Source: Spirosoma montaniterrae (GTDB taxonomy: Bacteria; Bacteroidota; Bacteroidia; Cytophagales; Spirosomataceae). From it: a stretch of DNA of 64,000 nt. Shown piece by piece: positions 6,366 through 61,170 of this stretch. How positions within the stretch are numbered: the stretch's first letter is position 1; every line of letters begins with the position of its first letter. The stretch spans positions 3,442,001 through 3,506,000 of the forward strand of contig NZ_CP014263.1 of the NCBI RefSeq assembly GCF_001988955.1, given 5' to 3'. A model generated the notes under the pieces. It made no database searches, was not told the DNA's origin, and saw nothing but the letters and a program-made list of their open reading frames with translations. Position numbers and translations under genes: made by a program.

Positions 6366-7207
6366 ACGTCCTGCTCAAAACAATAGGCTTCTTCCTGAAC
6401 GTACTGGCGGTAATTTTTCCGCGCCGGGCCGGACGATTGGGCTTTGCGATACTGTGCCGCCCCGTGCGGACCAAAATTACCCAACGACACCGCACTTTTT
6501 TCGATTCGGCTGACCAGTTTACTCTACAGCACGGCAACGATACAGTACGGGGCTACCGCTGGGGAAACGGTCCGCAAACCGTCTTGCTGCTGCATGGCTG
6601 GCAAAGCCATTCATATTACTGGAAACAGTACGTTGACACGATTGACTTGTCTCGCTATACGCTTTACGCCTTCGACGCGCCGGGACATGGACTGAGTACG
6701 GGAAACTTCCTGACGATGCCTTATTACAGCGACGTAGTCGAGAAGGTTATCGAGCAGATTGGCTCAGTAAATTCGGTGGTGGCTCACTCCATCGGCGGCC
6801 TGACGGCGATCTACACCTTCTACAGAAAGCCAACTCTAAGCCCGGCCCGGCTCGTTACATTGTCGGCACCGGGGCAGGTTCAGGAGTTTTTTGACTTATT
6901 CAAACGGCAACTGGGCCTTACTCAACACTGCGTCCGACAAGTAATGACTTGTTTTGAAGCCCTGGTACAGAAACCAACCGCTTATTACTCAGCCGCTACA
7001 TTTGCCAGGTCGCTCATCAGCCGGGGATTGGTTATACATGATCAGAACGACCGGAACACGCCGGTAGCCAATGCCAGAGCGATTCACGAGAACTGGAAGC
7101 AGGCGACGCTAATGGTTACCAACGGCAACGATCACAACCTGCGGTCGGCGGACGTGGTGAAGCAGGTGAGCGATTTTCTAAGCAACAAAATAACTCAGCC
7201 TTACTAA
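6362..7207 (+). CDS. alpha/beta hydrolase
   Basis: A 281-residue alpha/beta hydrolase. The oxyanion region is VLLLHGWQSHSYYWKQYVDT, the nucleophile elbow is VVAHSIGGLTAIYTF (Ser in AHSIGG), the acid lies in VIHDQNDRNTPVANA and the catalytic histidine in NGNDHNLRSADV. The N-terminal segment KTIGFFLNVLAVIFPRRAGR could be a membrane anchor. It is the last gene of the GNAT/membrane-protein run and its ATG overlaps the previous stop. The substrate is unknown; esterase or thioesterase activity is most likely. Confidence 0.85.
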   Translation: MNVLLKTIGFFLNVLAVIFPRRAGRLGFAILCRPVRTKITQRHRTFFDSADQFTLQHGNDTVRGYRWGNGPQTVLLLHGWQSHSYYWKQYVDTIDLSRYTLYAFDAPGHGLSTGNFLTMPYYSDVVEKVIEQIGSVNSVVAHSIGGLTAIYTFYRKPTLSPARLVTLSAPGQVQEFFDLFKRQLGLTQHCVRQVMTCFEALVQKPTAYYSAATFARSLISRGLVIHDQNDRNTPVANARAIHENWKQATLMVTNGNDHNLRSADVVKQVSDFLSNKITQPY

Positions 7208-24885: not shown

Positions 24886-25003
24886 GACACAGAGATGCAC
24901 AAAGTTTACACGGAGATACACAGAGGTCATAGTCTCAAACACAAATAGCTTTTAAGAAAAAATCTCTGTGAAGCTCTGTGCCTTCTCTGTGCATCTCTGT
25001 GTC
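24886..25003. repeat. intergenic inverted repeat, 16-bp arms
   Basis: GACACAGAGATGCACA (24886-24901) and its exact complement at 24988-25003 enclose further AGAGAT/CTCTGTG repeats. It occupies the spacer between the MFS and AhpD-like genes, both on the minus strand. It may form a long hairpin in RNA, acting as a terminator or processing site. Confidence 0.7.
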
Positions 25004-25010
25004 ATAACCT

Positions 25011-26231
25011 TTAATCCGTTTTATACCGAGCCAGCACCACCAGCAGTGCTACCAGGAACGCCACCGAGAACACCAGCAGGGCATTGCCGAAGCCGCCGAG
25101 AGCCGCCACCATCGCACCCACGAAAAACACCGCTGTTGCCGTGAAAAACCGGCCAATGTTGAAACTGATGCCAGCCGCCGTTGCCCGAATCCGAACCGGA
25201 AACAGTGCCGGAATAATGCTCGACAACGAACCCTGACTGATGCCAAAAAACAGCGCAACGAACGCCGTTTCGGCATAAATCACGGGCGAGAACGTCTGGT
25301 TGGTCAGGAACAGCAGCGCACAGCCGCCCGCACAGCCCGCAAACGTCAGCAAAAGCGTTCGGCGCGAACCCAGCCGGTTCAGCAGCCCCCCCGACACCAT
25401 GCCGCCCAGAATACCGCCCATACCGAGCAGCATCATAGTCAGGCCGCGTTCGCGTTCGCCCGTTTGCCCGGCGGGAAGCAGCGTTTGCACCCAGGTCGGA
25501 ATCCAGGAGAACGTACCCCACAGACCAATCAGCACCGCGCCGAACACCAGCACGCCCGTGAGTAGGTTGGCCCGGTCGGTGGGCGTCCAGTCGTTAAATT
25601 TCGTAGTAGACTGTTTGCGGCTGGCCTGTTGCCAGCTTGCCGATTCGGGAAGCCGGAACAGCATCAGCCCAGCCACAACCAGCGGCACTGCCCCCAGCCA
25701 GAACGCCTGCCGCCACGGTACGGCTCCTACGTTCAGCCCGCCCGTTGCCACGATGCCCACCGGAAACATCACAGCCAAAACGCCCAAAACTACCGCCCTT
25801 CCGCGCTCCGGCCAGATTTCGGACAAATAAACGGTCGTGAGCAGCAACACGCCCCCCACGCCCGCGCCCGTCAGAAACCGGCACAGCAGCAGCACCGGCC
25901 AGTTGGGCGCAAACACCGTCAGCAGCATAGCCGCGCCGTAGAGAGCCGTCACAAAAGCCACCGCCCGCACCCGCCCGATGCGGTCGCCCACGACGCCGAA
26001 TGCCAGCCCGCCCACCATCCAGCCATACAGAAAAGCCGCGCTGATGTAGGCCCCGATTTCGCCTAACCGCTCTTCTGAAACAGATTGGCCCAGCACGTCG
26101 GGCACGGCCACGGGCAGCACCGTTGCCATGAGCGTTGAGGCCGTACCGCCCAGTCCATACGACAACGCACACAGCGCAAAAGCCAGCCAGTTGGCGGTCA
26201 GGGCTTCCGATTTTGTTTTTAGTGCTTCCAT
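25011..26231 (-). CDS. MFS transporter, 12 helices
   Basis: A 406-residue major facilitator protein. The first half has ALSYGLGGTASTLMATVLPV, the loop 2-3 motif GVVGDRIGRVRAVAFVTALY and LLCRFLTGAGVGGVLLLTTV with the E-W-P-E-R-G-R loop. The second half has the matching MVSGGLLNRLGSRRTLLLTF. This arrangement is like sugar/aromatic-acid symporters, but no substrate motif can be named. It lies within the run of AhpD-like, haloperoxidase-like and TonB genes and may move a small organic substrate or product across the inner membrane. Confidence 0.88.
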   Translation of the reverse strand: MEALKTKSEALTANWLAFALCALSYGLGGTASTLMATVLPVAVPDVLGQSVSEERLGEIGAYISAAFLYGWMVGGLAFGVVGDRIGRVRAVAFVTALYGAAMLLTVFAPNWPVLLLCRFLTGAGVGGVLLLTTVYLSEIWPERGRAVVLGVLAVMFPVGIVATGGLNVGAVPWRQAFWLGAVPLVVAGLMLFRLPESASWQQASRKQSTTKFNDWTPTDRANLLTGVLVFGAVLIGLWGTFSWIPTWVQTLLPAGQTGERERGLTMMLLGMGGILGGMVSGGLLNRLGSRRTLLLTFAGCAGGCALLFLTNQTFSPVIYAETAFVALFFGISQGSLSSIIPALFPVRIRATAAGISFNIGRFFTATAVFFVGAMVAALGGFGNALLVFSVAFLVALLVVLARYKTD

Positions 26232-39145: not shown

Positions 39146-40336
39146 ATGATTTATTTGGATAACAACGCCACGACCCGCATCGACCCGCGTGTGCTCGATG
39201 CGATGATGCCGTTTCTGACCGACAACTTCGCCAACGCGGCCAGTACGCACCCGTTTGGTGTGGGCGCGAGCGAGGCCGTAAAGCGGGCACGGCAACAACT
39301 GGCCGATCTGCTGAACTGCGAGACGCACGAGTTGGTGTTTACGTCGGGCGCGACCGAGGCTATCAATCTCGCGATCAAGGGCGTAGCCGAACGGACCGAT
39401 ACAAATCGCAAACACATCGTGACGGTGCAGACCGAACACAAAGCTGTGCTGGACGTATGCCATTACCTCGAAACGCGCGGCTTTGCCGTAACGTACCTGC
39501 CCGTTCGGCCTGCCTGGGACGCCGACGCGGGGTTGATTGACCTGAACGAACTGAAAGCGGCTGTTGGTCCCGATACGCTGCTGGTGTCGGTCATGCTGGT
39601 CAACAACGAAACGGGCGTGATTCAGCCAATTAAGCAAATCGCCGACATTGCTCATGCTGCCGGTGCCTTTTTCATGACCGACGCCACACAGGCCGTAGGT
39701 AAACTACCCATCGATGTCGATGCCCTCGGAATCGACCTGCTTGCGTTTTCGGCGCACAAGTTTTACGGTCCCAAAGGCATAGGCGGGTTATTCGTGCGGC
39801 AACGCAGGCCCAACAAGGTAAAGCTGGAGGCTGTTTTGCACGGGGGCGGTCACGAGCGCGGCCTACGCAGCGGCACCCTAAACGTACCGGGCATTGTAGG
39901 CATGGGCGCAGCAGCATCCCACGTAGAGACGCAAAGGGTTGCGTCTCCTGACCGGATGGCTGGGCTGACGCATAAAGAGACGCAACATCTTGCGTCTCTA
40001 CGCGACCGATTAGAAACCGAACTGCTGACGATTCCCGGCACCCGTATCAACGGCAATCAACAGCACCGGCTGTACAACACCACCAACATTCTGTTTGAAA
40101 ACTGCGACTCCGACGCGCTCATTATGGGATTGGAAGGCATTGCCGTATCGAATGGTTCGGCCTGCACAGCCGCCAGCATCGACCCGTCGCACGTGTTACT
40201 GGCTATGGGCCTGAGCGAACAGGAAGCGTTTTCATGTCTGCGCTTCAGCGTAGGCCGCTTCAACACCGAAGCCGACATCACGGCCACAGTTTCGGCGGTA
40301 AAACACGTAGTGGAGGAGTTGCGGGCGTTAGTGTGA
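39146..40336 (+). CDS. dndA: cysteine desulfurase (NifS/IscS/DndA type) with in-frame repeat insertion
   Basis: A 396-residue PLP enzyme that releases sulfur from cysteine. It starts MIYLDNNATTRIDPRVLDAM, has the PLP lysine in FSAHKFYGPKG, the RSGTLNVPG motif and the catalytic cysteine in SNGSACTAASIDPSH. The LDNNATT start and the position beside dndC/dndB-like genes suggest DndA, the sulfur donor for DNA phosphorothioation; that specific symbol is an inference, since housekeeping IscS looks similar. Residues of about 260-286 (HVETQRVASPDRMAGLTHKE..) are the translation of an 81-bp GAGACGCAA repeat, inserted where other family members have a variable helix before LRDRLE. The frame remains open. 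Confidence 0.85.
   Translation: MIYLDNNATTRIDPRVLDAMMPFLTDNFANAASTHPFGVGASEAVKRARQQLADLLNCETHELVFTSGATEAINLAIKGVAERTDTNRKHIVTVQTEHKAVLDVCHYLETRGFAVTYLPVRPAWDADAGLIDLNELKAAVGPDTLLVSVMLVNNETGVIQPIKQIADIAHAAGAFFMTDATQAVGKLPIDVDALGIDLLAFSAHKFYGPKGIGGLFVRQRRPNKVKLEAVLHGGGHERGLRSGTLNVPGIVGMGAAASHVETQRVASPDRMAGLTHKETQHLASLRDRLETELLTIPGTRINGNQQHRLYNTTNILFENCDSDALIMGLEGIAVSNGSACTAASIDPSHVLLAMGLSEQEAFSCLRFSVGRFNTEADITATVSAVKHVVEELRALV
39922..40002. repeat. GTAGAGACGCAA palindromic element inside the desulfurase gene
   Basis: CGTAGAGACGCAA at 39922 and its exact complement ending at 40002 bound an 81-bp element made of two smaller palindromes (39923-39947 and about 39976-40001). At 81 bp it is exactly 27 codons with no stop in the coding frame, so the host gene is kept open. 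Confidence 0.85.
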
Positions 40337-41019: not shown

Positions 41020-41043
41020 GCTGTCAGCAAGATAACGAAATTT
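41020..41043. repeat. GCTGTCAGCAAGATAACGAAATTT, first copy
   Basis: This 24-base sequence occurs identically at 41020-41043, 41348-41371 and 42019-42042. Here it is immediately upstream of the first antitoxin gene; flanking bases differ from the other two copies. Together the copies separate the toxin-antitoxin units of this region. Confidence 0.85.
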
Positions 41044-41338: not shown

Positions 41339-41380
41339 GTGCGGTTAGCTGTCAGCAAGATAACGAAATTTTGGGGCGGG
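41339..41380. repeat. 42-bp direct repeat, left border of TA module 2
   Basis: Bases 41339-41380 match 42010-42051 at 39 of 42 positions in the same orientation (GTGCGGTTAGCTGTCAGCAA and on). The pair encloses the PIN toxin-antitoxin genes 41384-42003 with very little extra sequence, so the unit of 671 bp looks like a cassette. Confidence 0.85.
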
Positions 41381-42009: not shown

Positions 42010-42051
42010 GTGCGCTTAGCTGTCAGCAAGATAACGAAATTTTGGGACGAG
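42010..42051. repeat. 42-bp direct repeat, right border of TA module 2
   Basis: Second copy of the 41339-41380 repeat (three mismatches), located between the antitoxin start (42003) and the stop of the DGQHR gene (42055). It contains the shared 24-base core at 42019-42042. Confidence 0.85.
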
Positions 42052-42054
42052 TGG

Positions 42055-43785
42055 TCACGGTACGGCAGGTAGTTCAACTAAGTCAACTCGTTCGTTTCCT
42101 CTCATTTTGCTATACTCCGTTAGAACATAATCTACGTCGTGGTCTAATCCGAGCAGATACTTAATGTACTCTCTAAGAAATTTCACCGAACTCTTACTAA
42201 TCATTGTTTTTTTGGCGGGGTTCCATATGACATCGCTCCAATATTCTCCGTTCAAGCTATCATCTATTTTGGTAAATTGAGTCCAAAACGTTTTTGTTTC
42301 ATCCTTCTGTTTCTGCCATTGATGATATCCATCCGCTAATATTTCAATTCCAATTGGCCTAAAAAGCATAGACCCTCCTTCTTTACTCCTATAATCTGCA
42401 ACGGTACTACTTCTATCTAAAAGCACCGCTTTGTAAGCCGAAACGTTGCTTACAGCTTGTTCCCAAAAGCTCAAACTAATTTGATAAAGATTTTCTGTTA
42501 TCTCCTCAGCAGGTCTGATGTCTCGAAACTTATACACATCGCTGTAAAGCAACTTGTTGACCTCTCGCAGATTGAGTATAGATGTCAATTCTGTAGCCTC
42601 AGCACTGATATTTGGCGTGGCATTCAACGCTATAAATTCGTCCTTTGCGAAAGGCACAAACTCAGCATATAGCCTACGTGTGTTAATATCTACTGGATTG
42701 TCTTCATTCGTTATCAGGTCATCTAAGCCAGATACTTTTAACGCTTTTGTGTTGATTTCGGAAAATAATCGACGCGTTCTTACTTTTCCCTCCTTTGTAT
42801 CATTGTGCGCTACAATGACGACTGGTAACTCATCATTACGAAATTTATTCGACTGCTGATCTAAGGCTTGTTTGATACCATCAATCCGGTGTTGACCATC
42901 TATGGAAAATAACTTCTCAGAACCAGTCAATTCTAATATGCCGATTGTATCAAGTATGTGTTCATCCAATTCCATCTCAGGAACAGCCGATGGGGCAAAG
43001 TCGAATCTATACCAGTTTGGATTTCCTCCATATAGACCAATAATAATAGAGTTGAAGAATCTCGTCTTTTCTCGGATCAAATAATCCTTGATCTTTTTTG
43101 AACGTTTAGACAGATCACGTTGAAGAACATCATCTAACGTTTTATACTCCCGTATAGAATGGTCGTTGTCAATTCGTTCAATAATTTCATGAAACGGAAT
43201 AACCGTCTGGTAAAATATCCAGTCCCCAATAACTCCTTTGATTGCCGGGAGTTGTATTGCTTTGTTAATGCTCATATACTGCTCATATACTGCTCGGACG
43301 ATGCGTTCTAAACCTTGTGGATACTTTGAGTTAATTGGGGGCATAAATGCAGTTAGAAATAAATCTTCTATTTCTTTTCTACCTTTCTTGTTTAACCCAG
43401 GAAACTCAACATAATTGAAGTAGAGGTGATCAGGATAATCATCTATTACTGCATGTACTTTATACTGAGCAGATTTTGGGTTATGAATTTTCTTCAAATA
43501 ATCCCCATAACGTACTCTTAAGTCTTGTGCCTCTCCAACATAGAACAGATAATTTATGAATTCTGCATTGATCTTCTTCGGCGATGCAGTGAACATGTAC
43601 AAGCCCTCCACTTCAGGAATCTCATCTTGATTTGCTACCTCAAACTTCATCTGCTTCCATACAAGGCCATTGTACAAAGTTGTCAATGTCTCCCACTTTT
43701 CAGGACAAGCAATAAACTGACGCCTATAGAAAATTAACGTTTTCCTCGTTCCTCTATTTGTTACAGGGTCAAAATAGTCAGTCAT
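42055..43785 (-). CDS. GIY-YIG nuclease fused to DGQHR (DndB-like) domain
   Basis: A 576-residue protein. Residues of about 58-155 look like a GIY-YIG nuclease: GLY at 61-63, YVG at 82-84, R90/R92 in DLRVRYGDYL, and a Glu in KGRKEIEDLFLTAFMPPINS with the usual PPxN end. Residues of about 240-500 carry the DGQHR domain: LFSIDGQHRIDGIKQAL (DGQHR at 296-300), then TRRLFSEINTKALKVSGLDD. DndB, the DGQHR protein of Dnd loci, binds DNA and represses the operon, but normally lacks a nuclease. This longer relative lies 10 bases after the HerA-like gene on the same strand. Its codon use is distinctly AT-rich compared with neighbours. Confidence 0.75.
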   Translation of the reverse strand: MTDYFDPVTNRGTRKTLIFYRRQFIACPEKWETLTTLYNGLVWKQMKFEVANQDEIPEVEGLYMFTASPKKINAEFINYLFYVGEAQDLRVRYGDYLKKIHNPKSAQYKVHAVIDDYPDHLYFNYVEFPGLNKKGRKEIEDLFLTAFMPPINSKYPQGLERIVRAVYEQYMSINKAIQLPAIKGVIGDWIFYQTVIPFHEIIERIDNDHSIREYKTLDDVLQRDLSKRSKKIKDYLIREKTRFFNSIIIGLYGGNPNWYRFDFAPSAVPEMELDEHILDTIGILELTGSEKLFSIDGQHRIDGIKQALDQQSNKFRNDELPVVIVAHNDTKEGKVRTRRLFSEINTKALKVSGLDDLITNEDNPVDINTRRLYAEFVPFAKDEFIALNATPNISAEATELTSILNLREVNKLLYSDVYKFRDIRPAEEITENLYQISLSFWEQAVSNVSAYKAVLLDRSSTVADYRSKEGGSMLFRPIGIEILADGYHQWQKQKDETKTFWTQFTKIDDSLNGEYWSDVIWNPAKKTMISKSSVKFLREYIKYLLGLDHDVDYVLTEYSKMRGNERVDLVELPAVP

Positions 43786-43795
43786 ACGTCAACAA

Positions 43796-45094
43796 TCACT
43801 TATTAAACCGTTCCAACTTCACCAACTCACCGCGTTTGAATTCTTTTAGGCTCATCACGGCCTGGCCGTTTTCGATCTTTTCCATGCTGCGGGCTAAAGT
43901 CAGGGATTCCTTTTCGCCGAACCCTAAGAAACGGGCCATCTGCCGGATGTTCTTGTCTTTGATGTTCAGCAAAAACACGTTGGCGCAGTTAGCCGAGAAA
44001 TCCATGTCGGCCTGAATGAATTCCTTGATTTGCTGCGACAACAGCACAACCATCACACCCTTCGACCGTACCTGCCGTAGCATTTCATCGAGCAAGGCCC
44101 GCGACTTGCCCTCGCGGAAAATCACGTTCGCTTCGTCAATCAGGAATACGTAGCGGATGGCCTGCAAGGGGTTGCCCATGCTATCGGGTTCAACGGGGGC
44201 CTCCTCCATGTTCATGAAGGTGTTATAAACGTAGTTGATGAGCAGGAACGTAGCAGTGTACCGGATCGAGTCGTCTAAGTTGGCTCCTAAGCTGACGTAG
44301 TAGTTGCGGTTCAGGAAACTGTCTTTGGCATCGGTGGCCGGGGCGAACAGTTCGAGTTCGCTCAGGCTGTCCATAATCTGCGTCAGTACGCCGGGTTTGC
44401 CGCCCGTTACGTCTTTCAAATGCTCGTTTACGTCGGCCAGCGTGGGATATTCGCCCAATTTTTTGGCTTCGAAGGCAGCCCGAGTAGCTTCTTTCAGTTG
44501 CTGCTGCTGCACGGGTCCCATACGAGCCGCATAACGCATAATGATATCCACAAACTTGCTGATGCCCTGTATTTTGTTCTTCTCGTTTACATTGTCGATA
44601 AACGTGAGCGGGTTGAACGGAAACGGCGTTTGCGGTACGTCGAGATATACGGCGCGGGTGGCGTCGAAGAACGATTGCCGACGCGGGAGGTCAGCGGGTT
44701 GCAGCCCCTTGAAATCTAAATAAATGAAGTTTACGGCCCCGTTCGATACGTCGGAAACCTGTTGCAGCAGACTTAGCGCGAACTGCGTTTTGCCGCTACC
44801 CGACTCGCCCGCTACGGCAATGTGGGCGTTGCTGTGCAGTTCGACCATGTTCAGGATGGCCGTTAGCTGTTCGCCGGTTTCGATATCGTAGCCAACGTTG
44901 ACCCGGAGCGGGCCGCTGAAATAATTCTTATGAATGTTCTGGTGGCGGTTCGTTACGGGCGTAACGGGCACGTCGGCGTCTTCGAGGGCTTCGATGCCAC
45001 GCTCTACCTCATCGAACAGGAAGTCAAGCCCGGTGTAGGTTTTGTTCTGCTCAAACAGCTTCGCCATCAGTTCAAGCCCGTGGTCGAGGTGCAT
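43796..45094 (-). CDS. HerA/FtsK-like ATPase with truncated DndE-like N-terminus
   Basis: A frame of at least 432 residues. Walker A is AVAGESGSGKTQ (G96-T103), Walker B is VFLIDEANVIF, and GVMVVLLSQQIKEF is typical of HerA-type motors. The frame stays open to 45157 (stop TAA 45158-45160) but the first ATG is at 45094. Upstream codons read QLICQQYGIPKTDGNVGRYI K, and with MHLDHGLELMAKLFEQN resemble the C-terminal end of DndE, a small subunit of the phosphorothioation complex. The remainder of such a domain is missing, and the kwaA promoter region begins right there, so the gene looks 5'-truncated. Without a canonical start further upstream it may be weakly expressed. Confidence 0.7.
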   Translation of the reverse strand: MHLDHGLELMAKLFEQNKTYTGLDFLFDEVERGIEALEDADVPVTPVTNRHQNIHKNYFSGPLRVNVGYDIETGEQLTAILNMVELHSNAHIAVAGESGSGKTQFALSLLQQVSDVSNGAVNFIYLDFKGLQPADLPRRQSFFDATRAVYLDVPQTPFPFNPLTFIDNVNEKNKIQGISKFVDIIMRYAARMGPVQQQQLKEATRAAFEAKKLGEYPTLADVNEHLKDVTGGKPGVLTQIMDSLSELELFAPATDAKDSFLNRNYYVSLGANLDDSIRYTATFLLINYVYNTFMNMEEAPVEPDSMGNPLQAIRYVFLIDEANVIFREGKSRALLDEMLRQVRSKGVMVVLLSQQIKEFIQADMDFSANCANVFLLNIKDKNIRQMARFLGFGEKESLTLARSMEKIENGQAVMSLKEFKRGELVKLERFNK

Positions 45095-45213
45095 TTTAAT
45101 GTAACGACCTACGTTACCATCGGTTTTCGGGATACCGTATTGCTGACAAATTAGTTGTTAAGATTTGTAATATTCTGATAAAAATTCGTTATTTTAGAGT
45201 CTAAATTCAGGCC

Positions 45214-45780
45214 ATGAATCCACGTTTTTTAACTGCCGTAATTTTATTCGTGAGTGCATACTCACCATTGTTTACTATACTCATTATCAAGGACTTTGAT
45301 TTTAAATACGATTCATTCAAGCACCCGAATATTGCTTATACATCAATTGGACTTGTAGCCCTATCCATCGCTTTATTATTTTATAGTGTGAATAGTATAA
45401 AAGCTGGAAATACTGTCTTCAAGATAAACTCAGTTAAGGCTCGCTCAGGGGAGTTTATAAACTATACCGTACCCTACCTTCTCTCATTTTTTGGCGAGAA
45501 CCTTGATGATTTGGGAGACGTGCTCTCGCTTGGCATTTTCTTGACAACCATTTTAGTAATAACCATTCGATCAAAGTCAGTATTTATCAATCCAGTATTG
45601 GCGTTCGCTGGCTACGGTTTGTACGATGTAGACTATACGTATGACGGAAAAGTATTTTCTACAACTGTTTTGAGCAAATTAGATATAGAGACCGATAAAA
45701 TTTACTATGTTCGCATGATTTCTAAATTTCTATTCTTTATAGTTAAGCGACATGACGGTCGACCAGCCCAGCAACCTTAA
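45214..45780 (+). CDS. kwaA: Kiwa anti-phage protein KwaA
   Basis: A 188-residue membrane protein with four hydrophobic segments: FLTAVILFVSAYSPLFTILI, NIAYTSIGLVALSIALLFYS, TVPYLLSFFGENLDDLG and LGIFLTTILVITIRSKSVFI. The length, topology and coupling to a DUF4868 gene fit KwaA, the membrane component of Kiwa, which senses phage attack at the envelope. It overlaps kwaB by 29 bases. It is strongly AT-rich and opposite in orientation to the flanking dnd-like genes. Its 5' end lies about 55 bases from the truncated HerA gene frame. Confidence 0.8.
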   Translation: MNPRFLTAVILFVSAYSPLFTILIIKDFDFKYDSFKHPNIAYTSIGLVALSIALLFYSVNSIKAGNTVFKINSVKARSGEFINYTVPYLLSFFGENLDDLGDVLSLGIFLTTILVITIRSKSVFINPVLAFAGYGLYDVDYTYDGKVFSTTVLSKLDIETDKIYYVRMISKFLFFIVKRHDGRPAQQP

Positions 45781-46717
45781 ACAGAAACTTAACGGTCTCA
45801 AACGCATCAATTTTGATAATCTTTCAACACAACTCGTTGTTGTTAAAGCTGTAAACCGTAATCGCCAATTTAGATATACATTACGGTACGTACCGATAGA
45901 AGACAAGTTATCTCAACGTCTTCATAACTTAATGCAACGTAAAGTCGAGTCGGCTAATATATGTACTGAATATACTCTCGACTGTCTCGAACCTGAAGTA
46001 GACATGGTACTGGGCATGGAGCGTAGTGAAACAGATTTTTCGATAATTGCAGAGCAGCTTAGTGAATTAGATCCTAACGTAGACATAATCCAGGACGTAA
46101 AAGAGCTTGAACAATCAAGTTCATACCTAATTGTGATGCGTGACACAGAAGGTATTCAGCTTATCGGCTTTAAAGTATTGCCCGAAAATTGGAAAGCCAA
46201 AGGTCGAAAAAACCTCATCTCCTTACTTTTTAAAGGCAATGAATTTATAGACTTGGATGAATCTCCCGTATTTAGTATATCGAAGACTATTGATGTAGTA
46301 TCTTTTGAGGACACCCTGTTCATCCTATCGAAGAAGGAGTTCGAGCGTGGGCTGAATTATCGTGAAGGCATGAAAAACAGCGCACAAGAATTCTATAACG
46401 ACGTTGATGTTCAGAAACTCTTTGTTAATCTTGATTCTCTTACAAATAAGGTAGGAGATAATATACGACTAATGCGTAAAGTCGCTCATGTCAAAAAATT
46501 AGGCTACTACAAGGATCCTGCATTTATCCTCAGATTATGTGAAGTGTGTACTAACCGAGATTGGCACGAAATTTCTTTTGTGAATAGCCAAATCGTTCTT
46601 TCGGAAGATAATATTGAGGCTGTATTGACTATACTGGCGGATCAGCGATTACTGTCAGAATTAACTTCTAATATTTACGATGTAAATAGTGCCAAAAGAT
46701 TTAACAATAACAGGTAA
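45752..46717 (+). CDS. kwaB: Kiwa anti-phage protein KwaB (DUF4868)
   Basis: A 321-residue protein with the DUF4868 signature in its second half: IGFKVLPENWKAKGRKNLIS, FKGNEFIDLDESPVFSISKT then IDVVSFEDTLFILSKKEFER. Kiwa's KwaB is the cytoplasmic DNA-binding effector that partners with KwaA. The N-terminal half is mixed alpha/beta with no nuclease motif that I can see. It starts inside kwaA (29-base overlap) and ends one base before the end of the convergent HNH gene, so the two genes form a compact 1.5-kb unit. Confidence 0.82.
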   Translation: MTVDQPSNLKQKLNGLKRINFDNLSTQLVVVKAVNRNRQFRYTLRYVPIEDKLSQRLHNLMQRKVESANICTEYTLDCLEPEVDMVLGMERSETDFSIIAEQLSELDPNVDIIQDVKELEQSSSYLIVMRDTEGIQLIGFKVLPENWKAKGRKNLISLLFKGNEFIDLDESPVFSISKTIDVVSFEDTLFILSKKEFERGLNYREGMKNSAQEFYNDVDVQKLFVNLDSLTNKVGDNIRLMRKVAHVKKLGYYKDPAFILRLCEVCTNRDWHEISFVNSQIVLSEDNIEAVLTILADQRLLSELTSNIYDVNSAKRFNNNR

Positions 46718-46718
46718 G

Positions 46719-47702
46719 TTAGTATTTGTATATATTCTCCCGATGCCACGCAAACGCTTCTAAATCTGGTAGATAACGCTCGTCCTTGGGTAATTGAATT
46801 TGCACATCTGCCAATGCTTTCAAGCTGTATGTGCTACGTTCGTTTTCGACAAATGTGCGCGAAACTACAACGCGATAATTATCATCAATCGAGATCGCGC
46901 CTTTGTCAAATGCCCGGTGCAGATTTGGGCAAAGGGCGATGCCGTTGGTTGGGTGGTTGTTGAATTTCTTGTAGAATGGTACGATGTGGCAGGCATCTAT
47001 CATCGAAAAAGAATACGGAGCTGATACGCGAATACCTGATATACAGCACGTATCGTTGTAGAGCCGGACAATCTCACGCCGGAACAACGTATCGCGGGAG
47101 TAGACTTCGATTTGATATGTCTCCGGGTCAAGTCGCGTTTTCAGAGCTTTGAACTTGGCCTCATATTCGGCTGGCGATTCTTCCAGCATCTCCCGCTTCA
47201 AATCAGCTAAGTGGTTGTCGGTATCCGCAACTTGATACGCTATCTGGTTAGGGAAATACGTATTTAGCAACACCTTACGCAGCACGTTACGTGTTGGCTC
47301 GTTCTTCAGTAGTTCAGATAGGTTCGGGTCGATTTGTGCGTAGGCAACGGCTGCGCTTAAGTTGGCGAACGTGGTGAGTTTGCCGTTTTGCACCCAAATT
47401 TCACAACCAGTATTTGCCACCAACTCCCACCAGTTACCTTTTTCATTTTTCAGGTGAAAGAACGGCAAAGCAAAACCAAGCGTGTGCCCGGACGTAACGA
47501 GCAAATTCCAGTTCGATTTGAATAGTGACGTTAATTCTGGCGAGATAGGTATTTGATTTGTAGTGAGCAGTTTAGTTTCGTATGCCTGAATAACAGTAAG
47601 TAACAGTATCGGTTTGTGCGGGGCTTTCTCTTCAACTTTCCCACCTCCCCGATTGAGGTTTGAAAAAGCATAAACGTAATAGTCGAGTATATTTTCAGAC
47701 AT
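46719..47702 (-). CDS. SBD-like/HNH endonuclease coupled to dndC
   Basis: A 327-residue protein. Residues of about 1-175 resemble the sulfur-binding domain of ScoMcrA-type phosphorothioated-DNA-binding nucleases: KVEEKAPHKPILLLTVIQAY, FALPFFHLKNEKGNWWEL and NVLRKVLLNTYFPNQ. Residues of about 215-290 form an HNH nuclease: CCISGIRVSAPYSFSMIDAC, HIVPFYKKFNNHPTNGIALC, PNLHRAFDKGAISID. The start overlaps dndC by 8 bases, so translation is coupled. A nuclease that cuts phosphorothioated DNA would be self-toxic if the dnd genes were active; either they are not, or this version reads modification differently. Confidence 0.78.
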   Translation of the reverse strand: MSENILDYYVYAFSNLNRGGGKVEEKAPHKPILLLTVIQAYETKLLTTNQIPISPELTSLFKSNWNLLVTSGHTLGFALPFFHLKNEKGNWWELVANTGCEIWVQNGKLTTFANLSAAVAYAQIDPNLSELLKNEPTRNVLRKVLLNTYFPNQIAYQVADTDNHLADLKREMLEESPAEYEAKFKALKTRLDPETYQIEVYSRDTLFRREIVRLYNDTCCISGIRVSAPYSFSMIDACHIVPFYKKFNNHPTNGIALCPNLHRAFDKGAISIDDNYRVVVSRTFVENERSTYSLKALADVQIQLPKDERYLPDLEAFAWHRENIYKY

Positions 47703-49035
47703 GAACGGTATTTTCTATACGTCGTGCAATAAAATTCTCAAGCCGCGTTTCCAGGTCCTGTTGCAGGCCGCGTTTGCGGATGAGCAGGGCTTTGTTTTTC
47801 TGGAGGGTCAGCATTTCCTGAATCAGTTCTACGTGTTCGGGTTGGTCGGCGCAGGCTTCGCGCAGCAGTTCTTCTTCCCGGCGCAGTTTCTCAACGTGCT
47901 TACTCATGTCAATGTCGGTGTTGTAGATACGGTTATAAATGTCGGCTACTTTGGGGTTGAAAATACTGTCGCGAAACCAGGTTAGCTGAATAGCCACCAA
48001 CTCCTGATGCGTAATGAGTTCGATAACATCGCCCTGGGTTTCCTGAATTTCTTTCTGCGCCTGCAGCAGCATATCCAGAAACTCGGCCCTGATTTTGGGC
48101 GTGTACGGCCCCCAGGTGTTTTCGTCCTCTTCTTTAAAGGCACTGTCGGTACGACGGCGTTTCTCGCGGGAATCGCGGTTCGAGCGTTCTGTGAGCAGGC
48201 GATTCCGTAATTCCACAAGCGGTTCCATCCAGTCGTCACCATTGCCGATGAGTCCTTCCATACTTTTATCCCGGCTCACTACGGTGCAGACCCAGCACCC
48301 GAACCGGCTGTTGCCGCAGGAGGGCGACGACTCATCGATTACAAGCGGGCAGTCGCCAGAGTTGGCGTTGCGGTAGAGCGTCACAAGTTCCTTGTGCGTG
48401 CCACCCCACGGGGGCGATACCTGCATTAGATACTGCCACAGTTCGGGCGTTTCGATGTCTTTAATGGGCGCATAGACAAACGCGTTGGGCAATAAATGCT
48501 TACGTAGACGCTGCCCTTTTAACTCGTGTCGTTTCATGGAGCGGGCACGGGTTTGGCTTTCATCGGAGCGCGTACCGAGCAAAATAATAGCCTCGCCTGC
48601 CTCGCTGATTTTTTCCTGAATAAAACGCGTCGTCGGATTTATTTTCAGCCGTTCGGTACACCACCGGAACGAATTAACCGGCGCGGGGTAGCCTTTGCCA
48701 ATCAGGTTTACCCAAAACGTATCTTCAAGCCGGGGCGTAGTGCGGTGGACAGTAATTGGCATTCCCTGCTCAGTGGCAGCTTTTTGCAACAGTTCGAGCG
48801 TTCGGTTGATGAAGTTGACAATCTTCGGATTTTCAACCAGTGTATCATTGCAGACAACGTAGATTCTACGATTGCGCGACATGGGGTCAATTTTCATCAA
48901 CGCCCGCCAAACCATCTGCAACAACATAGTAGAATCTTTGCCGCCACTAAAGCCAATAATCCACGGACGTGGGTTCTCGTCGTAGAGATATTGATCGATG
49001 ATTTCGGATTCGATAAACGGTAGCTTGAGCGACAT
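47695..49035 (-). CDS. dndC: DNA phosphorothioation sulfurtransferase DndC
   Basis: A 446-residue full-length DndC. The ATP-pyrophosphatase P-loop is IIGFSGGKDSTMLLQ (SGGKDS at 30-35), followed by VVCNDTLVENPKIVNFINRT and the substrate region RWCTERLKINPTTRFI. Iron-sulfur cysteines are in SPSCGNSRFGCWVCTVV. DndC takes sulfur from DndA and, with DndD and DndE, places it in the DNA backbone. dndD is absent downstream: an HNH gene follows, then the Kiwa pair. It is the first gene of the minus-strand dnd-like operon and starts about 250 bases from a divergent lipoprotein gene. Confidence 0.92.
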   Translation of the reverse strand: MSLKLPFIESEIIDQYLYDENPRPWIIGFSGGKDSTMLLQMVWRALMKIDPMSRNRRIYVVCNDTLVENPKIVNFINRTLELLQKAATEQGMPITVHRTTPRLEDTFWVNLIGKGYPAPVNSFRWCTERLKINPTTRFIQEKISEAGEAIILLGTRSDESQTRARSMKRHELKGQRLRKHLLPNAFVYAPIKDIETPELWQYLMQVSPPWGGTHKELVTLYRNANSGDCPLVIDESSPSCGNSRFGCWVCTVVSRDKSMEGLIGNGDDWMEPLVELRNRLLTERSNRDSREKRRRTDSAFKEEDENTWGPYTPKIRAEFLDMLLQAQKEIQETQGDVIELITHQELVAIQLTWFRDSIFNPKVADIYNRIYNTDIDMSKHVEKLRREEELLREACADQPEHVELIQEMLTLQKNKALLIRKRGLQQDLETRLENFIARRIENTVHV

Positions 49036-53036: not shown

Positions 53037-54365
53037 TTAGCCACGCCACCGTGGCCCGCGTATGTATTGACGCTCCTTCCTGTTGACAAATAATTCTGCT
53101 AAGTATCCCTTATCAATCAGGATTTTGATATCATTTCGGGCTGTTTGCCCCGACACGGCAAGTCGCATCTGTACTTCTTTTGCAGACAAGGTAGCATGGG
53201 AATTTTCCTCTAACCATCGCACAATTTCAGCCTGCCGGGGCGACAAACCTTCATTGACCTGAAGCGTAAGCAGTTGTCGCTTTTCGGCGTTTTTCCGCGC
53301 TATGTATTTCTTTAATTCATCGTAAGCTTTACTGAGCGTTTTAACCTGATACAACACAAAATAAGTCAGGTCGTTTTCATCAATTTCTGTGTATTGAAAA
53401 GCCCGGTAATACTGGCTTCGCGACTGCATAATGACCCGCGAAATTGACAGATACTCGGTCAACCAATAGCCCTTTCGCAACAGATACCAATAAAACAAAG
53501 CACGAGCAGTTCGACCATTGCCGTCTGTGAATGGGTGAAAATAACCAATCAGAAAATGAATAATGCTCGCCCTAACCACCGGATGTACAAAAAAATCGGG
53601 CGTTTCATCGTTGAAAAGACGGCACAAATCCGTCACAAAAGTTCCCATCTTGGTATATGAAGGTGGGGTATGGATAACGTCACCCTCGACGGCATCCACT
53701 ACGTAAATAGTATCGTTTGTTCGCAACTGCCCCGCTTCTTCAGGTTTCTCCATCGTGTCAGCAATCATAAGCCGATGCAATGCCAGCAGCGAGTCGAGCG
53801 TTAACGGCTCGTTTTTAGTTTTAACAATGTGCTGAATCGTCAGGTAATTATTGACAATCATCCGCTCAGAAACAGTACGAGGTGGTCGATTCTTTCGTAG
53901 CATATCTTTAGCCACTACCCGCGACGTTACCGCGCCTTCTATCTGACTCGATGCGATTGATTCTTCCATGATCGACCCCACCAGATACCGGTGTTTATCC
54001 GTTTCGGGAATAGTCTCCTGACCACCCAGCGACCCGCCTAAGTTCAGGTCGAACTCGTGCAGGTATTGCTGAAGTGAATCTGTATTGGTAAAGTAAAAAC
54101 CTTCTCCTGCCAATTCAAGATACCGTCTATCCCGAAGTCTGTCATGCTTAACAATAGACCATAAAATAGCTGGGTCGATGAGCGTTTTATATTTCTCAGG
54201 TACTTTGTATTTTATTTTATCCCAGTATAAATAGTCTTCATTTATTCGCCGGATAACGCCTTCCTGATACAAAGCCATGTAAGCATCCCAACCCTTATTA
54301 TTTATAATGTTTCGTGTAAATTCCGAGTGCGATTTATAAGATGGTGCTTGTTCTATTTTCTTCAT
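53037..54365 (-). CDS. Fic-family protein with winged-helix tail
   Basis: A 442-residue Fic AMP-transferase. I use the ATG at 54365 (MKKIEQAPSYK); the longer frame would begin at TTG inside a palindrome. The catalytic motif is HPFTDGNGRTAR (H277-R285 region), and an N-terminal inhibitory-helix motif is SSQIEG (139-144), so it is self-inhibited in the usual way. The C-terminal 60 residues form a winged helix (SHATLSAKEVQMRLAVSGQT, ARNDIKILIDKGYLAELF). Fic proteins AMPylate hydroxyl groups of target proteins. The palindrome just upstream may be its operator. Confidence 0.92.
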   Translation of the reverse strand: MKKIEQAPSYKSHSEFTRNIINNKGWDAYMALYQEGVIRRINEDYLYWDKIKYKVPEKYKTLIDPAILWSIVKHDRLRDRRYLELAGEGFYFTNTDSLQQYLHEFDLNLGGSLGGQETIPETDKHRYLVGSIMEESIASSQIEGAVTSRVVAKDMLRKNRPPRTVSERMIVNNYLTIQHIVKTKNEPLTLDSLLALHRLMIADTMEKPEEAGQLRTNDTIYVVDAVEGDVIHTPPSYTKMGTFVTDLCRLFNDETPDFFVHPVVRASIIHFLIGYFHPFTDGNGRTARALFYWYLLRKGYWLTEYLSISRVIMQSRSQYYRAFQYTEIDENDLTYFVLYQVKTLSKAYDELKKYIARKNAEKRQLLTLQVNEGLSPRQAEIVRWLEENSHATLSAKEVQMRLAVSGQTARNDIKILIDKGYLAELFVNRKERQYIRGPRWRG

Positions 54366-54368
54366 ACG

Positions 54369-54407
54369 ATTGTCTAATATTGTCAAAATTTGACAATATT
54401 AGACAAT
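54369..54407 (-). promoter_or_regulatory. perfect 19-bp-arm palindrome at the fic start
   Basis: Bases 54369-54387 and 54389-54407 are exact reverse complements around a single A (ATTGTCTAATATTGTCAAA and complement), ending 3 bases upstream of the fic ATG and covering the last bases of the dehalogenase gene. Each arm holds two half-sites of the form TTGTC. Its length and near-zero spacer resemble a dimeric regulator site more than a terminator. Confidence 0.6.
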
Positions 54408-59579: not shown

Positions 59580-61170
59580 CTACCAGCCCGCAATTAAATT
59601 CAGGAGCCAGTCGGGTTTAAGAAAGAGCAGAACGATAGAAAACGCCAGCGCAACGGCCAGATACCCCCCCCCTCCGATGGCTCGAACCGGCTCCGGCTGT
59701 TCGGGCTGAAGGGGCCGGAAGAATAACAAAAATGGTATTTTCAGGTAATACACGAGCGAAATCAGCGCATTCAGAATACCCAGTGCAAATAAGGCCAGCA
59801 GCCACGGATTGCCCTGTTGCTGCCAGGCATCATACAAAGCTGAAAATGAGAGTAGTTTAGCCGTAAAACCCACCGTTGGCGGCAGGCCGGTCAGTCCGAG
59901 CATCGTAACGGTCAGCGCAACCGACAGCAGCGGCTGTTTAGGCCCTAATCCGGCAAAGTTGCGAATCAAAATACCGTCGTCGGCTGCGTTGGCCGGGTTT
60001 GTCCGCGCTAATAAATCAATCAGAAAAAAGGCCGCCAGCGACAAAAACAGGTAGGTTCCAGCATAGAACAGCACAGCCTCAAAACCTGCTTCGTTCAGAG
60101 CCACCACCCCTACCAGCAGAAAACCCGCGTGGGCAATGGTCGAATAAGCCAGCAGCCGTTTGGCATCCGTCTGACGCAGGGCCGACAAATTACCGATGAA
60201 CATTCCTGCCAGTGCCAGCACGGCCAACGGCGTTTGCAACCCCACCACCGACGCCCCCACCGACTCGACGGGCAGGGATGTAACGACGCGCATCAGCACC
60301 AGCACGGCAGCGGCTTTGGGGCCGACCGAAAAAAACGCGGCCACCGGCACGGGCGCGGCTTCGTAAGCATCGGGCGTCCAGACGTGAAACGGTACGCCGG
60401 CCAGTTTAAACAACAGCCCCGCACTCGTCAGCAACACGGCCACTACCGCCACCGCCGACTCCTGCCGGGCCAGTTCGATTCCAAACGCGTCGGCAGTAAG
60501 GTCGAGCGTACCGGTCATGCCATACAGCAACGACATGCCATAGAGCATAATGGCTGAACTTACCGCCCCAAACAACAGGTATTTAATACCGCCTTCCGAT
60601 GCTTTCCGACTGGCTGTCAGGGCCGTGAGCAGATACGAACAAATCGACACCAGTTCAACGCTTAAATAGATACTAAGCAGATTGACCGAGATCGTCATCA
60701 AAAACAGCCCCAGCGTCATAGCCACCAGCAGGGCGTACCATTCGGAGGGCAGTCTGCCCTCTCCCTCACCCCCGGCCCCTCTCCCAGAGGGAGAGGGGGG
60801 AAAGCCATCAGAGCGTTTTGCACCCCTCTCCCAGAGGGAGAGGGGCCGGGGTGAGGGAGGAGCCACTCATATGCCACCACCAGCGTAGCCGCCAGCGCAA
60901 TCACAACCTGCATGTACAGTGCCTGATTATCGACAAACAGCAGCCGCATAAACAGGTAGCCGCGCCAGGGCAACACCACCGCCCACACCCCGCAACCAGC
61001 AGCATCAACAGACACAGCATCGCCAGCGTTCGACGAGCTTGGTTCTGCGAACTACGCAACAACAGCAATTCGGCCACCAGCAGCCCGCAGAAAGCTACCG
61101 ATAACCAAATTACCGGGCCAAATCCGCCGAGACTGCCGAGAATGTCGCGAAGTTGATCGAGGAGAGACAA
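59580..61170 (-). pseudogene. nuoN: NADH-quinone oxidoreductase subunit N, broken in two places
   Basis: The NuoN sequence runs through three frames. From ATG 61170: VIWLSVAFCGLLVAELLLLR to AMLCLLMLLVAG. After one missing base in the C-run 60988-60991 it continues as VWAVVLPWRGYLFMRLLFVD to ATLVVAYEW. After a palindromic insertion at about 60749-60862 it continues as SEWYALLVAMTLGLFLMTIS. The last frame, open to the stop at 59580, holds the helices of the proton-channel core, including GVPFHVWTPDAYEAAPVPVA and AKRLLAYSTIAHAGFLLVGV. No other nuo gene is adjacent, so this is an orphan copy. Either change alone would break the frame and they do not compensate. Confidence 0.8.
60749..60862. repeat. 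CCCTCTCCC palindromic element inside nuoN
   Basis: GCCCTCTCCCTCACCCCCGG and on pairs with CCGGGGTGAGGGAGG at the other end, and each half is itself a hairpin (CCCCTCTCCCAGAGGGAGAG). It interrupts nuoN between the codons for YEW and SEWYALL. The equivalent points are 125 bases apart, which is not a multiple of three. Confidence 0.8.

Follow-up and report, generated by a model that had tools for sequence, protein, structure and literature searches.

We analyzed a 64,000-nt stretch of the genome of Spirosoma montaniterrae (NZ_CP014263.1, positions 3,442,001–3,506,000; hereafter the window), which holds an incomplete dnd operon, the gene set for DNA phosphorothioation (PT), with a complete pair of Kiwa defense genes inside it. 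We consider it likely that this operon was converted in place from a locus that writes PT marks into one that cuts PT-marked DNA, and that Kiwa then filled the space left behind. Read along the minus strand, dndC is followed by a nuclease gene encoding an N-terminal sulfur-binding domain (SBD) and a C-terminal HNH domain (SBD-HNH), a gap, a dndE::herA fusion gene that lacks codons 1–93, and a DGQHR gene. The complete kwaAB pair occupies this gap on the plus strand, opposite to the dnd genes. By its gene layout, the locus is one in which dndD and the start of dndE have been lost, the SBD-HNH gene overlaps the dndC stop, and a complete, opposite-facing Kiwa pair lies in the gap. An assembly error is unlikely, because the genome is one contig of 5.8 Mb and the KwaB protein was found on five contigs.

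Gene content of the dnd-Kiwa locus

The features of the locus are as follows.

47695..49035, minus strand: dndC, DNA phosphorothioation sulfurtransferase; full-length open frame (TIGR03183, 476 bits, cut-off 290), the last ~250 bp of which are of the type found beside the HNH gene in other Spirosoma
46719..47702, minus strand: SBD-HNH nuclease; its start overlaps the dndC stop by 8 nt
45752..46717, plus strand: kwaB of Kiwa; overlaps kwaA by 29 nt and ends 1 nt from the HNH stop codon (46719–46721)
45214..45780, plus strand: kwaA, the Kiwa membrane protein; matched in PADLOC and the PDB
45155..45213, plus strand: junction from the cut dndE frame to kwaA; 59 bases between the HerA frame and the kwaA start
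45029..45154, minus strand: dndE remnant, residue 94 onward of the dndE::herA fusion; first 93 codons missing
43796..45094, minus strand: HerA/FtsK-type ATPase that formed part of the dndE::herA fusion; the frame remains open, and the first ATG after the cut is at 45094
42055..43785, minus strand: DGQHR/DndB-like gene (TIGR03187, 93 bits, cut-off 58.9; Pfam DndB, 84.8 bits)
39146..40336, plus strand: cysteine desulfurase (dndA-like); many relatives also carry it beside the far end of the locus

This arrangement had been proposed in a reading made from the sequence alone (the sequence-only reading), and most of its claims were borne out. Gene calls and profile searches confirmed the minus-strand order with the opposite kwaAB pair in the gap, and kwaB does end one base from the HNH stop (46717 against 46719–46721). 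The HerA-like frame with its DndE-like tail, said to be cut about 55 bases from kwaA, is cut 59 bases away; this frame is open up to 45154, and residues 94–545 of an intact Spirosoma dndE::herA protein align to 45154..43799 (77%). Likewise, the claim that no dndD sequence is left was upheld by tblastn of the window with three DndD queries and by a search of the whole genome, in which DndD gave no match; across 390 genomes of the order, this query had matches in 26. Relatives with a HerA gene that starts naturally without DndE and has no dndD would have refuted the sequence-only reading; this is not what the relatives have, as their DndE is full. Finally, the sharp change in base composition, claimed for both edges, was found at the HerA side, whereas the HNH side is stepped because the HNH gene is itself intermediate in G+C (dndC 0.516, HNH 0.454, kwaB 0.379, kwaA 0.365, herA 0.534, and DGQHR 0.385; window 0.532).

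With regard to a functional Dnd modification system, dndC is present, dndD is absent from the window and the genome, and a complete dndE is absent at the locus. The cysteine desulfurase is present as a gene, and its function as DndA is putative. The remaining DndE tail is weak when taken alone (15.9 bits against a cut-off of 25, profile positions 76–107 of 111). A genome search with PF08870 gave no match, but control genomes were equally silent, so a DndE elsewhere is not excluded by that search. The locus resembles the Bacteroidota Dnd systems with HerA in having dndC, a dndE::herA fusion, a DGQHR gene, and a nearby cysteine desulfurase, and differs from them in that dndD and most of dndE are missing; for this reason, modification is not expected at the locus.

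The identification of the gap genes as Kiwa also stood up to profile searches. KwaA was matched by PADLOC (E = 1.1e-45) and by the KwaA structures 9o0i (E = 3e-6) and 9mrg (E = 7e-6) in the PDB. KwaB, a DUF4868 protein, was matched by PADLOC (E = 1.6e-82) and by Pfam KwaB (95 bits, cut-off 26.3), and had no match among the PDB sequences. The NCBIfam equivalog models remained below their cut-offs for both proteins (KwaA, 54 against 100 bits; KwaB, 42 against 200 bits). The KwaA membrane protein and an adjacent KwaB are thus both encoded, full length and in overlapping frames as in known Kiwa systems, and the pair differs from these in being nested in a broken dnd operon in the opposite orientation. 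KwaB had no match among 97 other relatives searched, and the best other match was 54% identical, so that Kiwa looks like a newcomer, probably from afar; a plasmid search with KwaB returned nine records, all below 30% identity. In the 59-base junction, we noted by eye what we take to be a Bacteroidota-like promoter (TTTG at 45164–45167, a spacing of 22 nt, and TATTTTAG at 45190–45197).

The nuclease was assigned from its sequence and predicted fold. NF045808, the NCBI family of phosphorothioated-DNA-binding nucleases, matched the HNH protein over nearly its full length with 113 bits, below the cut-off of 180, and Pfam HNH_2 matched it with 52 bits. Residues 1–150 matched the sulfur-binding domain SBDHga1 by sequence (PDB 8h0l, E = 2e-8). 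In a Foldseek search with the AlphaFold2 model of the protein (mean predicted local distance difference test score 84), the SBD-PT-DNA complex 8h0l was matched with a TM-score, normalized to the target, of 0.87 and a root-mean-square deviation of 2.0, and the SBDs of SprMcrA and ScoMcrA were matched more weakly (E = 0.02–0.3). According to PMC6224610, the sulfur in ScoMcrA is contacted by H116, R117 (Lys in most homologues), Y164, and P165. By alignment, the counterparts of the pocket are H29, K30, and P80, which are conserved in 93, 96, and 99 of the 99 sequences, respectively; the position of the Tyr of the YP pair is mostly Leu here, with Tyr in 10 of the 99. The HNH residues H239, N253, and H262 are kept in 98, 99, and 99 of these sequences. 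On our reading of the alignments, H29, K30, and P80 would correspond to the ScoMcrA pocket and H239, N253, and H262 would be catalytic, and the protein would accordingly combine a pocket-bearing sulfur-binding domain with the catalytic residues of an HNH nuclease. With a sulfur-binding domain, recognized both by sequence and by predicted fold, as its N-terminal half, the protein resembles the PT-dependent type IV nucleases (EcoWI, SprMcrA; SBDHga), with which it shares the SBD fold, the HK and P of the pocket, a C-terminal HNH domain, and the lack of an SRA domain. The gene product is probably a cutter of sulfur-marked DNA. When the ratio of nonsynonymous to synonymous substitution rates (dN/dS) was calculated for the nuclease, synonymous sites were mostly saturated.

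Dnd genes and nucleases in Spirosoma and other genomes

Other loci of the same genus indicate what the operon was. One of them (L018) is intact: dndC, dndD (705 aa), and dndE::herA (545 aa) are all present, and the GIY-YIG-like and DGQHR frames are separate. In another (L016), which has no nuclease, a small gene lies between dndC and dndD, and dndD is interrupted by one stop and followed by dndE::herA. In S. fluviale (L015/L146), dndC is followed by an HNH gene that replaces dndD codons 1–297, by dndD from codon 298, and by dndE::herA, and in S. telluris (L017/L124), a broken dndC is followed by an HNH gene that replaces dndD codons 1–599, by dndD from codon 600, and by dndE::herA; neither species has Kiwa at the locus. 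The gap in S. telluris holds an unrelated gene of 335 aa in the opposite direction (L017 11037–12044), which is matched by 80 proteins, three of them carrying PF10463, and by nothing in PADLOC. The window, with dndC, HNH, the opposite kwaBA, no dndD, and dndE::herA from codon 94, has lost the most. Judging from these alignments, the HNH gene is constant across the three Spirosoma, and the loss of dnd is graded from S. fluviale through S. telluris to the window. Since S. fluviale and S. telluris have the HNH gene and a cut dndD without Kiwa, the gene comparison indicates that the SBD-HNH nuclease is the constant part of the locus and Kiwa one of several cargoes.

The sequence-only reading had held that Kiwa replaced the dndD/dndE segment. 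That the segment is lost and that a foreign defense system stands in its place proved correct; Kiwa as the sole replacing agent was rejected, because the HNH gene with a cut dndD also occurs without Kiwa. A related explanation is that Kiwa replaced dndD and the dndE start in one event, with an HNH gene already present and harmless. The close fit of the pair, with kwaB 1 nt from HNH and the dndE cut 59 nt from kwaA, agrees with such an event. However, dndD is already cut beside the HNH gene in S. fluviale and S. telluris, and an HNH gene together with a complete dndD was not found in 35 same-genus genomes, which makes a single Kiwa event improbable. The best fit is a two-step history, in which the HNH gene arrived first and Kiwa came afterwards, as more of dndD and dndE was lost; no intermediate was seen in this lineage.

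We then surveyed the nuclease beyond Spirosoma. Scanning genome contigs with an alignment of the nuclease (two peptide patterns, both in the HNH part) yielded 297 relatives; the 80 best were retained, and loci that had been obtained twice were counted once (L015 = L146, L017 = L124, L054 = L125, L056 = L126, L059 = L134, L060 = L132, L062 = L137, L063 = L136, and L065 = L171). Adjacent dnd sequence was carried by 30 of these 80 loci, and a complete dndC, dndD, and dndE set stood beside the nuclease in none of the 29 that could be judged; in the remaining locus (L144), dndD could not be judged because the contig ends ~0.4 kb after the HNH gene. The dndD remnants beside the nuclease began at codon 263 (L179, in L021 protein numbering), 345 (L195), or 505–540 (L169 and L182), and two loci (L145 and L160) had no dndD and a dndE from codon 19–86. 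In six loci (L128, L137, L156, L178, L181, and L197), dndC was cut after 18–50 residues. Most of the 30 loci belong to Bacteroidota; two are labelled Brocadia (L139) and Methylococcaceae (L143), both metagenome bins. The weakest of the 30 are L130, with a DndD remnant at 33% and an HNH gene truncated where the contig begins, and L137, in which the dndC stub has 14 residues (E = 0.05). Set apart from the count were L164 (DndD-like ATPase, 25%, with no dndC or dndE adjoining) and L157 and L199 (weak DndC-like matches on the other strand or ~4 kb away).

In 26 of the 30 loci tested (window included), dndC lay within 1.7 kb of the nuclease, and in the other four, cargo genes stood between them. 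In 25 of the 26, the recognizable end of dndC (from residue 18 to full length) was –28 to +73 nt from the nuclease start. Because the stub frames of dndC stop close to the nuclease start, we considered whether the stub serves as a conserved leader; with so short a gap, however, this position is largely forced, and the idea was set aside. Where a dnd remnant lies downstream of the HNH gene (15 loci), the gap was ≤ 153 nt in 11 and > 1 kb in four (window, L124, L130, and L181). Two loci from different families, in Flavobacterium piscinae (L169 7650–12082) and Chryseobacterium candidae (L182 7650–12085), are nearly the same and have the same dndD remnant, so loci of this type seem to move between genera.

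Conversely, 22 complete dnd loci were collected by HerA or DndD searches, for which 20 of 26 and 7 of 13 DndD-matching genomes were fetched; the remaining 12 were weak matches and lay outside the survey. None of the 22 had the nuclease or its stub in the stretch read. Three incomplete loci (L016, L104, and L250) were set apart from the 22, as were four without nuclease (L121, L122, L256, and L259) with DndD-, DndE-, and HerA-like matches of ~30% and no DndC match. The stub search covered 25 loci; we did not count a second weak match in L023 (E = 0.013), which lies on the other strand at a distance of > 4 kb. In a survey from the dndC side, 12 of 217 genomes of the order had a match, one of them distant (L276, 30%) and set aside. 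The other 11 genomes gave 12 loci, namely eight complete ones without nuclease, L016, L274, L275 (contig end), and the window.

These counts bear on the possibility that the nuclease is native to the dnd operon as its restriction partner, with the loss of dndD as ordinary decay, Kiwa landing in a dead operon, and no conflict between the parts. The 8-nt overlap of dndC and HNH is of the kind seen in operon partners, dnd also decays where no nuclease is present (dndD stop in L016; dndD 1–625 and no dndE in L104; dndC stub in L274), and SBD-SRA-HNH genes in the Dnd locus of 698 taxa are treated as a restriction part in PMC10853773; the protein here lacks the SRA part, and those loci lie outside this comparison. 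On the other side, the nuclease is found in 0 of the 22 complete dnd loci, and 30 of the 80 nuclease loci stand on dnd remains with none of the 29 judgeable ones complete. Moreover, the nuclease frames beside dndC are open in 24 of 26 loci (317–343 aa; the exceptions are L137, with a stop, and L179, with 292 aa) though the surrounding dnd genes are cut, and the presence of the nuclease is scattered on the DndC tree described below. We therefore regard a native partner as unlikely.

Possible route of the proposed conversion and competing explanations

The dndC gene gave information on how the nuclease entered. When the dndC genes of three nuclease-bearing and three nuclease-free Spirosoma were compared, the last part of the gene grouped by nuclease, and elsewhere it did not. 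The identity between the dndC of S. fluviale and that of the nuclease-free L016 was 87–93% in columns 301–1050, 78% in columns 1051–1200, and 69% in columns 1201–1350. Sites that separate the window, S. fluviale, and S. telluris from the three HNH-free Spirosoma numbered 3 below column 1100 and 16 above it, against 136 and 40 other informative sites (Fisher p = 1.8e-7, with the boundary chosen after looking). Because the nuclease-bearing grouping is concentrated in the dndC end, the pattern of sites indicates that homologous recombination brought in this end with the nuclease behind it.

In the DndC tree, 20 rows with and 23 rows without the HNH gene interleave, with nine state changes, at least seven of which are forced by well-supported branches. 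The tree left out L109 (a near copy of L110) and L112 (dndC cut by the contig end), which are still counted among the 22 complete loci, and ten nuclease loci in which dndC is short or was not found; rows L143 and L155 are long-branched. In a quick tree of the nuclease, the dnd-linked rows (32 of 99, with L130 labelled as alone) were likewise scattered, with 23 changes, at least 12 of them forced. A single origin of the nuclease in dnd loci, which we had considered, is unsupported by this interleaving and scattering. The two trees cannot separate gain from loss.

We propose that the nuclease would enter a writer operon by homologous recombination through the dndC 3' end. Since it would be harmful to any cell with PT marks in its own DNA, the survivors would be recombinants without the writer, and arrival by recombination into the writer operon with destruction of dndD would amount to nuclease gain and writer loss at once. 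Survival of writer-losing recombinants only would explain why the nuclease is found on dnd remains and not beside a complete writer. The opened slot could then take up other defense systems, here Kiwa. From the loss of dndD and dndE, and from the work on S. lividans (PMC2653506), the cell would be expected to have lost the ability to mark its DNA with sulfur. The SBD-HNH nuclease, whose expression is probably driven by the dnd promoter, would bind phosphorothioated DNA and cut nearby, so that the locus would attack incoming sulfur-marked DNA instead of making such DNA, and Kiwa, from its own promoter, would add a membrane-based phage defense.

A laboratory precedent for such a conflict exists in Streptomyces. 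As reported in PMC3009677, introduction of ScoMcrA into Dnd+ S. lividans gave 300-fold fewer exconjugants, and the dnd island was deleted in 10 of 10 examined. The PT-cutter and the PT-writer do not coexist in either case, and dnd is lost on entry of the enzyme; in Streptomyces, however, the excision took place in the laboratory and removed the entire 93-kb island, whereas here the nuclease lies inside the writer operon in natural genomes.

Several observations weigh against the conversion as we have described it. Of the 29 nuclease loci in which dndC was found (window included), 12 retain it as a full-length open frame, which pure disuse would not predict. The HerA gene behind Kiwa has a dN/dS of 0.08–0.10, close to the 0.04–0.085 of its relatives, and may for this reason not be dead; given the kept dndC frames and a constrained HerA, other functions are conceivable. 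In L021, dndD lacks only its start codon, with the nuclease abutting closely, and dndC is absent. The decay of dnd without nuclease and the 698 taxa with SBD-SRA-HNH genes, both given above, belong here as well. In addition, in one genome (G496), a complete dndCDE (L254) and the nuclease (L255) occur on different contigs, and in another (G157), two such nucleases occur on contigs other than those of its two complete dnd loci. A strict whole-genome incompatibility of writer and nuclease is rejected by these two genomes, and because the complete dnd set and the related nuclease lie apart in them, exclusion would be a property of the locus and not of the genome; their co-occurrence could be explained by different sequence specificity, as suggested in PMC7461809. 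The nuclease-side and dnd-side counts come from different searches and therefore do not form a single unbiased table.

The first two of these observations are also what one would expect if the hybrid worked as one system, in which DndC, the HNH protein, HerA, and the DGQHR protein share a new task without DndD and a full DndE; the DGQHR frame, like that of HerA, is open. In the window, however, kwaAB separates HerA from the dndC promoter. The six dndC stubs of 18–50 residues and the presence of HerA in only 13 of 33 dnd-linked nuclease loci (the 30 of the scan, the window, L021, and L057; some contigs end early) mean that no fixed partner set is apparent, and we consider a joint system rather improbable. 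We thus return to the in-place conversion as the likely explanation.

More broadly, the dnd slot of Bacteroidota might be a two-state site that alternates between a writer (dndCDE) and a cutter (SBD-HNH) through dndC recombination and lethal conflict. The cutter would persist only where it breaks the writer, so that selection alone, without an integrase, would steer it into dnd operons, and the slot thus opened would later receive Kiwa, Wadjet, Hachiman, Lamassu, and other systems. We put this forward tentatively and hold it to be somewhat more doubtful than probable. The reverse direction is represented by one locus (L250), in which a dndC-D-E::herA set, with a stop near the C-terminal end of dndD, follows an SBD-HNH stub cut after 69 codons (6656–6865); from its sequence, this is a possible swap from cutter to writer.

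Predicted PT-dependent nucleases have been reported near dnd in less than 3.6% of cases, with ~65 unresolved and mutated dnd clusters named as a possibility (PMC7461809). While the known SBD-HNH nucleases are rarely near dnd, the clade analyzed here stands on writer remains in 30 of 80 loci, and the incomplete dnd in all 29 judgeable loci of the scan bears on why such nucleases sometimes adjoin dnd genes. The distribution of dnd among bacteria is patchy, according to PMC8569181; if the proposed conversion is true, it would erase dnd and bar its return, which bears on this patchiness. Among the open-licence matches listed in our literature search, none dealt with Kiwa inside dnd, in agreement with the sequence-only reading, or with a PT-cutter replacing dndD, and no open-licence paper was found on Hahella with phosphorothioate. 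The parts of the locus are known; the repeated in-place conversion and the defense exchange in the freed slot appear to be new.

Cargo genes and neighboring sequences

Kiwa is one of several kinds of cargo in loci of this type. Cargo was assessed from 34 proteins picked by eye, some of them from nuclease loci without dnd sequence, so no rate can be derived. In Aquiflexum lacus (L171), Wadjet I (jetABCD) lies between the HNH gene and the cysteine desulfurase, and in L166, Hachiman hamAB lies between a dndC stub and the HNH gene. The space between the dndC stub and the HNH gene of L173 is taken by two TIR genes of the ThsB type and one caspase gene, as profiles showed, and the same set occurs in L150 with identities of 91%, 90%, and 49%. 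Lamassu lmuAB stands behind the dndC stub and the HNH gene in L143, and an Avs2-like gene with a viperin-like gene was found in L153. Two loci (L155 1591–4495 and L181 9620–12529) share a related set of three genes (~360, 235, and 369 aa; the last ATPase-like), which are 26%, 27%, and 40% identical; for the set in L181, PADLOC gave no assignment apart from a weak DolB match. These loci point to a chromosomal site that exchanges known defense systems and in which leftover pieces record each swap, and the cargo genes without assignment are candidates for new defense systems. Separately, in L061 (5512–8609), a prokaryotic Argonaute matching the class II profile and a SIR2-type partner lie directly behind the SBD-HNH gene, with no dnd sequence adjoining.

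At the other end of the locus, the DGQHR gene may encode a GIY-YIG domain in its N-terminal part, for which the match is weak (E = 0.006). Its G+C is low, and it resembles a gene pair from another genus (L019, 55–59%) more than its counterparts within Spirosoma in L017 and L018 (29–31%). These two features suggest that the DGQHR end of the locus was exchanged too. Around a PIN-domain gene downstream of the DGQHR gene, a 22-nt direct repeat occurs in three perfect copies (41020–41041, 41348–41369, and 42019–42040), where none would be expected by chance. Its 20-nt core is absent from 260 fetched loci, and a longer form has two copies in the whole genome, both at this locus. Elsewhere in the window, a Fic-domain protein with a C-terminal helix-turn-helix is encoded at 53037–54386, in another patch of low G+C, and a strong AT skew was observed at 25001–26000 (0.32) and 60001–61000 (0.31), over open reading frames of ~400 aa.

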